This document shows, in pieces, positions 5,214 to 9,889 of a DNA stretch of 29,965 nt; the first letter of the stretch is position 1; every line of letters starts with the position of its first letter. The stretch comes from a virus, in IMG/VR virus record IMGVR_UViG_3300040801_001809, positions 1-29,965 of that record; one strand, given 5' to 3'. Under the pieces are notes generated by a model. The model searched no databases. It was not told where the DNA came from and saw only the letters and a program-made list of their open reading frames with translations. Both the position numbers and the translations under genes were made by a program.

Positions 5214-5941
5214 TGGAATTTGATTTTGAATCTAGCATCGATAAAAAGAAGCTTCAAGAATCTTTAAGTGAAGAAATTCTTAAAGAAGATGCAGATGGTC
5301 CTAAAGACAGAGTAAAAGATATTGTTAAATTTATTATTAAATCTTCAAAAGATAGAAAACTTGGTGGGACTGAACATGATACTCTATTTGTTTTAGACAC
5401 TGCTAAAGAAAACGCTGAATCTCTTTTACTAGAAAACAAAAACATCAATGTATGGATCGAAGCAGTTCAAAACGACCAAGTTGTAAACAAGTATTTGTTT
5501 GAAAACTTTGGATGGTCTGCAATGTCCGGAAATCGTGCCATTAATAAAGGTCATGCAACTTATTTGGCAGAAGAGTTGAACTACTCTGAAGATCATCAGA
5601 CTATGCTTCAACGTTATTTGGATCACTGTGCAGAATTTCTTGGATTAGAAGAACTACCAGAGATACATCTCATTTATAAGAGGGATGAAGATATGACAAC
5701 TGGAGCGTATGATCCTCAAAATTATCAAATTCGTGCTCTGGCTGGGGGTCGTGCATTCGCTGATGTATTAAGAACTATTGCACACGAACTAGTACACCAT
5801 AAACAAAATCTCCAAAATAGATTAGTGGGAGAAATCCCAGTAGTAGGTGGAGAAATCGAAGATGAAGCTAATGCAGTTGGCGGACAAATGATAAAATCAT
5901 TTGGGACTCAAGAAGATAATGATCTTATTTACGAACTATAA
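5213..5941 (+). CDS. Late zincin metallopeptidase
   Basis: 242 residues with GGAGGTGAA just upstream. The C-terminal third has the zinc-protease signature HELVH (H191, E192, H195) in TIAHELVHHKQ, followed some 20 residues later by EIEDEA (E214/E216/E218), a candidate third zinc ligand as in gluzincins. The preceding YDPQNYQIRAL fits the strand before the active-site helix. The N-terminal 110 residues are not recognised and are rich in [L/I]xE triplets, the motif cut by the T4 prohead protease. Transcribed from the late promoter at 4889. Substrate unknown; a virion or injected protease is possible. Its 3' end overlaps the convergent adenosyltransferase gene by 6 bases with no terminator between them. 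Confidence 0.75.
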   Translation: MEFDFESSIDKKKLQESLSEEILKEDADGPKDRVKDIVKFIIKSSKDRKLGGTEHDTLFVLDTAKENAESLLLENKNINVWIEAVQNDQVVNKYLFENFGWSAMSGNRAINKGHATYLAEELNYSEDHQTMLQRYLDHCAEFLGLEELPEIHLIYKRDEDMTTGAYDPQNYQIRALAGGRAFADVLRTIAHELVHHKQNLQNRLVGEIPVVGGEIEDEANAVGGQMIKSFGTQEDNDLIYEL

Positions 5942-6487
5942 TACAGTCTGATCCCAAATTTCATCATGCGTTACATATCTAGCAAGTGTAAACAATAAAT
6001 CTGAGCAACGATTCAAGAATATTAAACAATTCTCATTGAATTCTCCACACTCACTATATGTTATCCAACATGAGCGTTCTGCTCTTCTTGCTATAGATCT
6101 ACACAAATGCAATTCATGATTTGGTATGATAAAATTACCAAGAGCATCCAATTTATTATGGATTCTCTCTATACAATTCTCTATATGCTCTATGTGTGTT
6201 TCGTTTATTCTAAAATTGGTTTCACTATCCATAGGCGTAGCACAATCAGTCCCAGCTACAAATAACATGTGTTGTAACCAAGTTAAAACACGAATGCATT
6301 CATTCCTTTTAATTGAACAAGTGACTTTTATATTCTTTGAGGCTATACCTATTGAACTATTAAGCTCATCAATATCACCGATAGCTTGAACGCGAATAGA
6401 TGTCTTTTTGTCTTTTGTACAATCTGCAAGCATTGTACACCCTTTGTCTCCATATTTGGTGAATGGTAACGGTGAATTATTTGCCAT
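5936..6487 (-). CDS. pduO: Cob(I)alamin adenosyltransferase, PduO type
   Basis: 183 residues from ATG 6487 (GAGGAG about 10 bases upstream; a longer form would run back into the release-factor gene). PduO/MMAB-type enzymes transfer adenosyl from ATP to cob(I)alamin, giving adenosylcobalamin. ATP-site motif TKYGDKGCTML (10-20), then IGDIDELNSSIG (36-47), RSIARRAER (130-138) and FLNRCSDLLFTLAR (157-170) are characteristic. The start lies one base after the release-factor stop (TGA-T-ATG), so it is co-translated in the RNR operon. The obvious role is to make the cofactor used by the class II RNR encoded upstream. Confidence 0.9.
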   Translation of the reverse strand: MANNSPLPFTKYGDKGCTMLADCTKDKKTSIRVQAIGDIDELNSSIGIASKNIKVTCSIKRNECIRVLTWLQHMLFVAGTDCATPMDSETNFRINETHIEHIENCIERIHNKLDALGNFIIPNHELHLCRSIARRAERSCWITYSECGEFNENCLIFLNRCSDLLFTLARYVTHDEIWDQTVL

Positions 6488-6488
6488 A

Positions 6489-7158
6489 TCAATATAACTC
6501 CTCAATATATCCTTTAAAATACAATTTAAGTGGAATTGACTTTCCATTTAAATGATTAACAACCTGACTATTTTGTTCTTGAACAGTTCTAATCTTATCA
6601 CCACGTAGACCGGTTCCAACTTGTTCTTTTCTGATAGCAGATCGAATATCATGTTGTTCAGATTCTTTAGATTTCTTAATCTTTTCTATTAAACGTTGTA
6701 ACGCAATGTCTTTATTTGCGTTTTGACAACGTTCGTCTTCACTTTGAGCAGTAATTCCTGTTTCGTAATGTGTCAACTCAACTGCACTCTCTACTTTATT
6801 TCTATGTTGACCACCTTTCCCAGATGCCTTATACGTTCTCATTCCATATTCCCATGGTTTTAAATCAACTTCAATCTTTTCTTTGTGGTCAAGAACTGCA
6901 CCAGTAACAGATGAAGTATGAACTCTTCCTTTCTTTTCTGTAGGAGGAACTCTTTGCCATCTATGACCCCCAGCTTCACTTAGAAATACGTCAGATTTCT
7001 TTCCATGAACTTCAAATGAAATGAATCCAGGCAACTCTTTTACGAGTTTAACCTCAAAGACACTCCTTGGCAGCAAACTTGCTGTAAATATTGAATAACT
7101 TTTCTACTAAGTCTTTGGCATCTCTGCCACCTTCACCTTGTCTTATTTCTACAATCAT
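6489..7158 (-). CDS. Short class I peptide release factor, made by +1 frameshift
   Basis: Two frames joined by a +1 shift give about 222 residues. Frame one starts at ATG 7158 (GAGGAG 7 bases upstream) and encodes MIVEIRQGEGGRDA up to a CTT codon (residue 34) followed by TGA at 7056-7054. Skipping one base continues at GAG 7055 through GGHRWQRVPPTEKKGRVHTSS to the catalytic GGQ (about 115-117). The joined protein matches release-factor domains 2-4 without a gap, but lacks N-terminal domain 1, as PrfH-type factors do. The recognition tripeptide is PPT (71-73), the PxT form of RF1 (UAA/UAG), not the SPF of RF2. It hydrolyses peptidyl-tRNA on ribosomes; whether it reads stop codons or rescues stalled ribosomes is open. 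It sits between RNR and the adenosyltransferase. Confidence 0.85.
7054..7068 (-). promoter_or_regulatory. Programmed +1 frameshift site, prfB type
   Basis: On the minus strand: AAGGAG (7068-7063), TGT, then CTT TGA G. This reproduces the bacterial prfB arrangement (SD-like AGGGGG, three bases, CUU UGA) including the spacing. It lies exactly where the release-factor frame must change. Confidence 0.88.
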
Positions 7159-7264
7159 TTTCTTTCTCCTCATATGGACAATTTCGACAACCATTATAAC
7201 AACAATGCCCTCTCTTGAGAAGAAATTCTCTTGAGAGGGCACCATTTTCGTCAAATATAGATTC
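7133..7264 (-). CDS. DUF5522-like Cys-rich reading frame, no clear start codon
   Basis: 43 codons directly after the RNR gene that read ESIFDENGALSREF, LLKRGHCCYNGCRNCPYEE and a short tail. The KRG-CC-x-x-GC-x-x-CPY pattern is that of the small DUF5522 family (from memory). No ATG or GTG is in frame; the nearest non-ATG candidates are ATA inside the frame, or CTG and TTG within the RNR gene, none with a good ribosome site. The frame is exactly +1 to RNR, so skipping the first base of the RNR TGA would fuse the two. It overlaps the release-factor start by 26 bases. It may be a real gene with an odd start, a frameshift extension of RNR, or a remnant. Function unknown. Confidence 0.5.
   Translation of the reverse strand, partial: ESIFDENGALSREFLLKRGHCCYNGCRNCPYEEKENDCRNKTR
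7193..7201 (-). promoter_or_regulatory. Extended -10 promoter before the release factor
   Basis: TGT TATAAT on the minus strand (7201-7193), 35 bases before the release-factor ATG. No good -35 is seen, but the TGn extension matches the other non-late promoters here. Confidence 0.45.
7207..7240. repeat. Long hairpin between RNR and release factor
   Basis: GCCCTCTC at 7208-7215 pairs with GAGAGGGC at 7233-7240; inside, GAGAA (7217-7221) and TTCTC (7226-7230) close a 4-base loop. There is no following T-run, so it is not a standard terminator. On the minus strand TTTCTTCTC (7225-7217) is also complementary (one G-U) to the release-factor SD region GAGGAGAAA (7171-7163), so two structures could compete. 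Confidence 0.6.
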
Positions 7265-9692
7265 AGGCTGCTGATGTTGGTTCAGTGTCTGTTGGATTTT
7301 CAAACTTTTTTGTTTCGTTTTGTTTTTCTTCGATTGCACGACCGAGATCTCCAAACTCACATTTGTTCCCTGCACATCCGTCTGCACCTATAGTAGAAAC
7401 ATCCAATTCATATGCTTCTTCTACAACATTAGACCAATCAATATCAACATATTCACGCTTAAGATCACACCAAAGCTTCCAATTGTGGACATCTTTCATG
7501 AGATAAGTACAACGACGAACATCACCATCACAGTAACGATCTGCAAACTGCTTAACACGACGAATCCAATCAATTTTAAGATTAGTCTTGTTCCACAATT
7601 CAAGTGTATCGTGATATTCAGAAACCTCCTGGGCATACTCAGATAACTTGACAGCCCATTCTTTATTATTATATCCATTTTTGGCCGGAAGATTAGGTTC
7701 TTCAGGTTTGTCGCTTTCAGTAGGGGTTTCACCTATACCAAGAACACTATCACATGCTGCCCAAAGATTATTATCAAATGCCTTTAGACCATCAACAATC
7801 AATCCAGATGCCATCATTGCACCATCACCATACTCTTTAACCATTTGTTTTGGAGTATATACAGTACACATAGGAGCTTGTGGGTAATCCTTGTCTCCAG
7901 AATTTGGAAGAAGTGAAATTCCAGCGAACCACTTTCGGTTTTCATAAATATATCCTTCAACATCATCCCATTCTTCAGGTTTAACATTAATAGTATTTGA
8001 AACGTTGTGTCGTAGCCATGGAGCAACACATCTTTCATGTCGAGTACCAGCTTCAACCCAATTCTGTTGAGTCAATTGAACGTGGTTGAGAAGATCAACT
8101 GCACCTACTTGGTTTTTAGTTTTTGCTCCCTTTGGAACTTCACACAAGAACGTAATGACTTCATCAGTCTTATTTGCAGACCAAACAGACTCTTCAACTG
8201 CAAGAGGATTATGCTTCTTAAAATGTTGAAGTGGGAATTCAAGCTTATTAGCTTGAACTCTTCTGAAATACATGTCTGCGTGGTGTGGATGTACACCAGA
8301 TGCAGTACCAAGAATACAAGAAGTTGTGCCTGCTGGCTTAACACAAGTTGCACGAGCACATGGGTTAGTACCAATTGCTGCTGCAATCTTTTCATTTATA
8401 TCAAGAATTAATTGAGCACCTTCACGTTGAATTTCTGGATCAAAGTTGATTTCTGGACAATCCATCATTCCAGTCATTGAAACACCCAGCAAAGCTTCAC
8501 GCTGTACAATCTCATTAGTTGCAGAATCTAGATAATCAAAAGTATCATAAGCAGCTTGAAGGGTACCAATAATTGCAGCAGCTTTACATGATTCCATAAA
8601 TCGTTCACGAGTGTCAGTCTTCTTACCATTTATCTCGCACAAATTGCAAAATTGCCAACCAGTACGACCATCTTCTGTATATGCACGCATACCGATTTCA
8701 ACACATGGATTATATAATGCTTCAGTATCATCACTCCAAACAAAGCCAGGTTCACCGAATTCTTTAACAGATTTCATGATATTTGCAAAGTCTTCTTTTG
8801 AAGTTTTATCACGAATAAGAAGCACAGAATTATTGGAGCGACCTCGTTGGGGGTTGTCAGTAAACCAAGATCCAGTTTTTGCATTAAGCATTTCTTCATC
8901 ATGTGGAGAGAATAAACAAATAGTAGCAGATCTACGAATACCACCTGAAATAACCGCATCAGATGCATGCATAATAATATCATATGCATCAATTGGTTTA
9001 AGTCTATTCTGACCTTCTTCAGTGATCCGTCTATCAATTAATGCTTCAATCTTTTCAATTGATCGGATTAAACTAGATGGACCTGGAGCTTTACCACCCC
9101 AAGAAATTGGAGCACCTTCTGGTCTAATTTGACTAAAGTCAAACTTAACATTGTAGCCACTGTAATCTTCTAGTTCTCCATAGTCATATGAATTGAAATA
9201 ACCACCTTCAGTGAAGTAACTTTGCATCAAGACACCAATAGCATCTGCCCATCCTTCAATGCTATCAGGGACTACAAATAATTTTTCACCTTTTGTTCTT
9301 GGTTGGATGTCTGGAAGTTTATCGATATGATGTGTTTGAACAGAAAACCCTGTACCACAACCACATAGTAATAAGTACATACATTCTTGGAAGAAACGAG
9401 GTCGGTCTACATACGAGACGGTACAATTATACATTTTGGCAGTCTTTTGAAGAATAGGTTCTCCTCCAAATTGAAGTGCTCTTTGAGATCCCAACACTCT
9501 CTTCTTTTTGACCATTTCTTTTGACCATTCAAAGTCTTCTCTAAAAGAATCTAGTTTTTCTCCAAACTTCTTCTCGTGCATAGCAAATACTCTATCAACT
9601 TGCTCATTCCACGTTTCTCTCCTCTTTTTCTCTTTATCATGTAATGCATATTTTGAATATTGAGTATAATCTGCTAACGCTTTGTAAGACAT
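7263..9692 (-). CDS. nrdJ: Class II (adenosylcobalamin-dependent) ribonucleotide reductase
   Basis: 809 residues from ATG 9692, preceded by AGGAGG; an upstream TTG at 9713 is rejected. One-chain RNR of the Lactobacillus leichmannii RTPR type. Visible: the first redox cysteine region MYNCTVSY (C90), the FCNLCEI Cys cluster (349-354) where the family keeps its radical-site cysteine (exact equivalence not assigned), the loop CVKPAGTTSCILGTASGVHP, and a C-terminal C-x4-C pair (CAGNKC, about 773-778) that relays electrons. A 31-residue tail follows the pair. It reduces ribonucleotides for phage DNA synthesis without oxygen or iron, but needs adenosylcobalamin, which the adenosyltransferase downstream can provide. 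T4 itself uses class I NrdAB. First gene of its minus-strand operon. Confidence 0.92.
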   Translation of the reverse strand: MSYKALADYTQYSKYALHDKEKKRRETWNEQVDRVFAMHEKKFGEKLDSFREDFEWSKEMVKKKRVLGSQRALQFGGEPILQKTAKMYNCTVSYVDRPRFFQECMYLLLCGCGTGFSVQTHHIDKLPDIQPRTKGEKLFVVPDSIEGWADAIGVLMQSYFTEGGYFNSYDYGELEDYSGYNVKFDFSQIRPEGAPISWGGKAPGPSSLIRSIEKIEALIDRRITEEGQNRLKPIDAYDIIMHASDAVISGGIRRSATICLFSPHDEEMLNAKTGSWFTDNPQRGRSNNSVLLIRDKTSKEDFANIMKSVKEFGEPGFVWSDDTEALYNPCVEIGMRAYTEDGRTGWQFCNLCEINGKKTDTRERFMESCKAAAIIGTLQAAYDTFDYLDSATNEIVQREALLGVSMTGMMDCPEINFDPEIQREGAQLILDINEKIAAAIGTNPCARATCVKPAGTTSCILGTASGVHPHHADMYFRRVQANKLEFPLQHFKKHNPLAVEESVWSANKTDEVITFLCEVPKGAKTKNQVGAVDLLNHVQLTQQNWVEAGTRHERCVAPWLRHNVSNTINVKPEEWDDVEGYIYENRKWFAGISLLPNSGDKDYPQAPMCTVYTPKQMVKEYGDGAMMASGLIVDGLKAFDNNLWAACDSVLGIGETPTESDKPEEPNLPAKNGYNNKEWAVKLSEYAQEVSEYHDTLELWNKTNLKIDWIRRVKQFADRYCDGDVRRCTYLMKDVHNWKLWCDLKREYVDIDWSNVVEEAYELDVSTIGADGCAGNKCEFGDLGRAIEEKQNETKKFENPTDTEPTSAA

Positions 9693-9889
9693 TCTGTTTC
9701 CTCCTGACGGCAATTTTAAGGTAGAAGATCCATATTTGGATTCTATTTCAAGTTAAGTTTAATTAGGTTTTTATGTTGAATTTAAGTGATATGTATCGCG
9801 TTCTTCAAGCATAGTGATTGTATTTATCACGGGTAATTTCATTTCTTCCTAACAAAAATTGTTACTATATATTGTATAATTAAGTATCA

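Follow-up and report, generated by a model that had tools for sequence, protein, structure and literature searches.

Feedback through a stop codon inside a release-factor gene is a textbook case of regulation, known for RF2 and its gene prfB. In RF1, the PxT recognition motif predicts that UGA is not read. When bacterial genomes were surveyed, UAG was absent from the prfB motif and prfA, the gene encoding RF1, had no programmed shift (PMC12421855). According to a 2016 review, neither release-factor genes with an early stop followed by continuation in the same frame nor a UAG/RF1 counterpart were then known, a giant-virus gene excepted (PMC5009743). RFH, a short class I factor, has been reported to be always paired with an upstream rtcB-like gene (PMC1586002), and phages with alternative codes have been reported to encode RF1-type factors (PMC10746230).

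Here we analysed a short release-factor gene in a 29,965-base virus record of a T4-like phage; this whole stretch of DNA is referred to below as the window. The gene resembles prfB in having an SD-like run three bases before CTTT, an in-frame stop and a continuation in the +1 frame, usually at TGAC among its relatives. In contrast to prfB, the family gene is of the RF1 type and lacks domain 1, and its site lies in domain 2 and is thus not an inherited prfB site; moreover, UAG is present at 20 of 90 sites, against none in the prfB survey (PMC12421855). RF1 is the best-scoring full-length family (NF001859, 185 bits; TIGR00019, 180 bits) and shares PxT and GGQ with the window protein, but the latter lacks domain 1 and stays far under the equivalog cut-offs (400 and 423), and its gene has a putative programmed frameshift, unlike prfA in the same survey. 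Like PrfH/RFH, it is a class I factor of about 200 residues without domain 1, but it reaches only 71.5 bits against the TIGR03072 cut-off of 166.65 bits. It is phage-encoded and RF1-type, as are the factors of UGA-recoding phages (PMC10746230), whereas the window uses the standard code and the factor appears to be gated by a frameshift. No published match was found for phage release factors with frameshifts in a search that left most subscription papers and preprints outside its reach, and earlier reports may exist.

Methods

Scanning viral contigs with the single sequence yielded no relatives, and an alignment was needed as query. With a seven-sequence alignment, 54 loci were found in viruses; with a 16-sequence alignment, the scans yielded at least 80 viral ones and 43 from assemblies of bacterial genomes. 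The search patterns were [I][VIL]EIR.. and E.GG[HQ]RWQ, and the family counts depend on these two peptide patterns; as they omit the shift site, they exerted no selection for it. Search alignment A2 was made from shifted members only, which biases it toward their close kin. The two halves of each protein were found with separate profiles, and the frames were then compared. After removal of near-copies at least 147 non-redundant sequences were retained. For the tree, the first 52 residues were left out.

The interrupted gene

The gene lies on the minus strand (Table 1). Its start codon is the ATG at 7158-7156, from which the 0 frame encodes MIVEIRQGEGGRDAKDLVEKLFNIYSKFAAKECL and then meets the TGA at 7056-7054. 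The context of the frame break (7068-7053) is AAGGAG-TGT-CTT-TGA-G, with the slippery CTT (7059-7057) as codon 34 and the TGA as codon 35. The +1 frame picks up at GAG (7055-7053), reads EVKLVKELPG... and ends at 6489, so that the product joined by a +1 shift has 222 residues. In an alignment with an RF1 of known structure (E = 3e-38) the joined protein shows neither a gap nor a repeat at the joint. The Pfam PCRF match begins at profile position 103, and there is a match to the RF-1 domain as well; domains 2 to 4 of a class I release factor are thus present and domain 1 is absent.

A sequence-only reading had described the AAGGAG, the three-base spacing, the CTT TGA G and the gapless +1 homology, all of which are confirmed here. 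It had also called the recognition loop RF1-type, in agreement with the PPT at 6947-6939 and with RF1 as the best-scoring family. The loss of domain 1 that it proposed is borne out by the start of the PCRF match and by the frame upstream of the ATG, open only as far as 7254, and the placement of the shift site away from prfB's codon of about 25 holds too, since the site is at codons 34-35 in domain 2.

Table 1. Positions of the elements of the interrupted release-factor gene in the window
Feature	Position	Strand	Remark
Whole interrupted short release-factor gene	6489..7158	-	222 aa joined by +1 shift
GAGGAG ribosome-binding site of the release-factor gene	7166..7171	-	read from sequence
0-frame ORF, 34 codons and TGA, start of domain 2	7054..7158	-	
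Internal SD-like AAGGAG, 3 bases 5' of the slippery codon	7063..7068	-	SD-like in 80/90 relatives
Slippery CTTT (CUU codon and U of the stop)	7056..7059	-	90/90 relatives with the site
In-frame TGA, codon 35	7054..7056	-	relatives: UGA 67, UAG 20, UAA 3
+1-frame part: remainder of domain 2, domains 3 and 4, stop codon	6489..7055	-	
PPT tripeptide, RF1-type PxT recognition motif	6939..6947	-	
GGQ peptidyl-tRNA hydrolysis motif	6807..6815	-	

Genes for a gp20-type portal, a prohead protease, the major head protein, an SbcCD-type nuclease, a helicase and a ribonucleotide reductase were recognised in the window. TGA ends 14 of its 25 ORFs, which indicates the standard code, and an altered code with UGA as a sense codon was rejected for the window. 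No matches were obtained when the window was scanned against Rfam and for tRNAs. The ribonucleotide reductase gene (7263-9713, minus strand) has a weak match to the B12-type insertion domain, and a cobalamin adenosyltransferase gene (5936-6547, minus strand) overlaps the 3' end of the release-factor gene; the two probably form a B12-dependent nucleotide-reduction cluster. An inverted repeat at 7206-7241, with a 4-nt loop and 16-nt arms that are 88% complementary, lies between the ribonucleotide reductase and release-factor genes; on the minus strand TTGTTGTTATAATGG comes after it, and this arrangement is terminator- or promoter-like. A small Cys-rich DUF5522-like ORF (7133-7387, minus strand; LKRGHCCYNGCRNCPY) overlaps the start of the release-factor gene. 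It was rejected as a partner of the release factor, its motif being found near none of the 146 other sequences.

Relatives of the gene

Among the 147 listed sequences, 90 have a +1 shift at the codon used in the window, four have one ten codons later, 41 are unshifted with one or two in-frame UGA codons, 11 are uninterrupted and one is odd (L060). Three of the uninterrupted sequences (L181, L183 and L184) have PAT or SPF loops, cluster together on the tree and are probably ordinary RF1 or RF2. About 143 of the 147 belong to the short release-factor family; 135 of them are interrupted, and the relatives that are uninterrupted at this point are a small minority of eight members.

Members were found in huge phages, in Nannocystis, Minicystis, Archangium and Achromobacter and on Variovorax megaplasmids. 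The nearest relative among the matches listed is L010, with 67% amino acid identity and the site AAGGAGTGTCTTTGAC. A 485-kb uncultured phage (LR745208.1) has a relative at 39% identity with CGG AGG GGT CTT TGA C at the corresponding place in the alignment and a shortened recognition loop (HRVQR-TSNGRIHSS). In four members (L002, L037, L038 and L054) the stop-recognition loop is shortened with no recognisable PxT, and GGQ and the shift site are kept; five (L015, L031, L048, L133 and L149) have RF2-like SPL, SPT or SPG loops within this RF1-type family. The sequence of Nannocystis pusilla Na p29 (L166) has an extra frame change relative to four other Nannocystis, which is probably an assembly error.

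Six genomes with a member also carry a prfA match above the cut-off and a second full-length release-factor match, which makes the short factor an extra one. In a draw of 113 genomes from the phylum of Nannocystis there was one clear member, that of Nannocystis itself (G020), with more than 230 bits and a broken frame, the other matches being ordinary RF1 or RF2. The gene is therefore sporadic and probably moves horizontally. No RtcB was found beside the release-factor gene among the window genes examined; in the complete genomes whose coordinates were compared (L144, L164, L166, L170 and L176) the nearest lies more than 170 kb away, and it is absent from 7 of 30 genomes. With the cut-off missed in the window and RtcB distant or absent in the genomes, identity with RtcB-linked PrfH was rejected for all members tested.

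Conservation of the shift site

CTTT is present at all 90 shift sites, whereas CTT accounts for 155 of 1247 Leu codons (12%) elsewhere in the same genes. The consensus of the 90 sites is CGGAGGGGT CTT TGA C. By a simple SD-like test, 80 of the 90 carry an SD-like motif at the site, against 0-22 at twelve other offsets; the remaining ten have no recognisable SD. The site and its SD are thus kept among homologues. The stop is UGA in 67 cases, UAG in 20 and UAA in three, and the site lies 32-47 codons from the chosen ATG. The base 3' of the stop is C in 65 cases and T in one. No UGA shift site is followed by T (0/67), compared with 27% of other UGA stops in the same loci. When Asp follows the shift, it is encoded by GAC (44) and never by GAT, compared with 635 to 382 elsewhere in these genes.

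Both sides of the site are coding. Between the window and L010, 15 of 21 differences before the joint fall at third positions of the 0 frame, and 86 of 157 after it at third positions of the +1 frame; sister pairs show the same bias towards third positions, those of the 0 frame upstream of the site and those of the +1 frame downstream of it.

Members with other interruptions

In the 41 unshifted interrupted members the in-frame UGA codons occupy codon 34, 35, 36, 41, 44, 45, 48 or 49, and none of the 41 has UAG or UAA there. None of these UGAs is followed by T (0/49 versus 30% at other UGA stops). A U at position +4 has been reported to lower readthrough (PMC5289835). On the megaplasmids of Variovorax sp. 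SRS16 and WDL1 the annotation splits the gene in two; both retain the UGA despite six other base differences between them. In Rhizobium leguminosarum pRlX5 and a Bosea plasmid the in-frame UGA follows CGT and GCT. For the member on the Bosea sp. RAC05 plasmid pBSY19_1 (L189), the annotation gives a hypothetical protein read from the opposite strand, and next to it lie a Cas6/CasE gene and a HipA-type toxin.

Four members, in Achromobacter anxifer (L169), Novimethylophilus (L180), L172 and L182, have a CTT TGA shift ten codons further on, at codon 45. In three of them the context is CGGGGNNAYCTTTGACC, with a CGGGG run, and is very prfB-like. On the tree these members group with those having in-frame UGAs, apart from the main shift group. 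This placement makes separate origins likely, although support is not good for every branch between them.

Alternative explanations

Metagenome contigs often contain errors that break a frame by one base, and the interruption could have been such an error or a decayed gene. However, the same codon and CTTT recur in 90 independent sequences, finished genomes among them, and the constraint described above acts on both sides of the site. Interrupted members also occur in finished or isolate genomes, namely in Minicystis rosea (L144), Archangium (L176), Nannocystis (L164, L170, L174 and L179) and Achromobacter (L169). Sequencing error is thereby refuted for the family, and we regard error or decay as practically negligible. 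For the relatives with in-frame UGA, an altered code (UGA read as Trp or Gly) would mean that these genes have no switch. UGA-avoiding phages are known (PMC10746230), and none of the few ORFs listed for the AT-rich L003 and L005 ends in UGA. In the subset of members examined, other open frames of some further AT-rich loci also contain a small number of in-frame UGAs. Against this, no ORF of these two low-GC loci other than that of the release factor has a mid-gene in-frame UGA, and UGA ends about half or more of the ORFs in L178, L131, L136 and L154, so that a changed code is not the explanation for these six; the two Variovorax megaplasmids carry the gene as two annotated genes. An altered code is quite improbable for the in-frame group as a whole. 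At least several of its members are in standard-code genomes and, judging by these comparisons, probably pass the stop by readthrough; selenocysteine or another recoding may also be involved.

More difficult to settle is what the early stop senses. By its PPT motif, the product of the window gene would be unable to read UGA, and the sequence-only reading had proposed a factor that reads UAA and UAG only, with the UGA site measuring host RF2 and the factor being made when UGA termination is slow. UGA is indeed the commonest stop at the site (67/90), it is used by all 41 readthrough-type members, and most members have a PPT loop. Yet UAG or UAA is found at 23 of the 90 sites, 13 of these 23 relatives having PPT, and UGA is simply the commonest stop in these loci generally (615/1080). 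Moreover, UAG is scattered over the tree, with 18 changes against a mean of 19.1 for shuffled labels, so that stop identity at the site is nearly free, and it tracks local usage: loci with a UAG site use UAG more often as an ordinary stop (0.33 versus 0.19, p = 0.005) and UGA less. This free drift weakens a sensor specific for host RF2, which is unlikely and finds no support as a general rule, but which may hold for this phage, with its UGA site and PPT loop. The pattern fits sensing of slow termination at any stop, or a factor that has broad specificity and represses itself. Under such autoregulation the short factor would read the stop present at its site, or perhaps all three stops, and would repress its own production. 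This would account for the way in which UGA, UAG and UAA replace one another freely at a single site, and the loops in the family do vary (PPT, PPN, PPG, SPT, SPL, SPG and shortened). It is nevertheless at odds with the RF1-type PxT, and the link between loop and stop is weak (p = 0.035 for the six SPx cases compared with all others, kinship uncorrected) and was not relied on. We consider autoregulation a tentative possibility, doubtful as it stands though somewhat better placed than the RF2 sensor.

Proposed mechanism

The explanation that we consider likely, from comparison of sequences, is that of a short RF1-type factor gated at an early stop by a +1 shift, acting as a reserve release factor controlled by the rate of termination. 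A ribosome reaching CUU-UGA would either terminate after 34 residues or slip. We infer that slow termination would allow a slip from CUU to UUU, aided by the internal SD-like AAGGAG, and that the rate of shifting would hence depend on release factor; the +1 frame would then give the 222-residue factor, which is predicted to release peptides. The full-length factor would rise whenever release at the stop of the site is slow, whichever the stop. The common feature of the family would be an early stop to be bypassed, not UGA, with bypass by a +1 shift at CUU-UGA, CUU-UAG or CUU-UAA or, apparently, by readthrough of an in-frame UGA. We lean, with less assurance, towards a wider reading in which these are reserve release factors of phages and scattered bacteria, switched on by slow termination, whose early stop has been replaced repeatedly, by a +1 shift at two positions and with any stop, or by UGA readthrough at several other positions.

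Conclusions

If this explanation is true, the family would be a second, apparently independent case of stop-codon feedback in a release-factor gene, this time of the RF1 type, in which the site can also be UAG or UAA and the bypass can also be readthrough, and would include the UAG-gated and readthrough-gated release-factor genes called unknown in the 2016 review. Stop-gated control would then be a general solution rather than a peculiarity of RF2. The finding also points to a third release factor, overlooked because annotation splits its gene in two, as in Variovorax SRS16 and WDL1. The sites would provide a natural set for asking what phages and bacteria gain from extra termination capacity.
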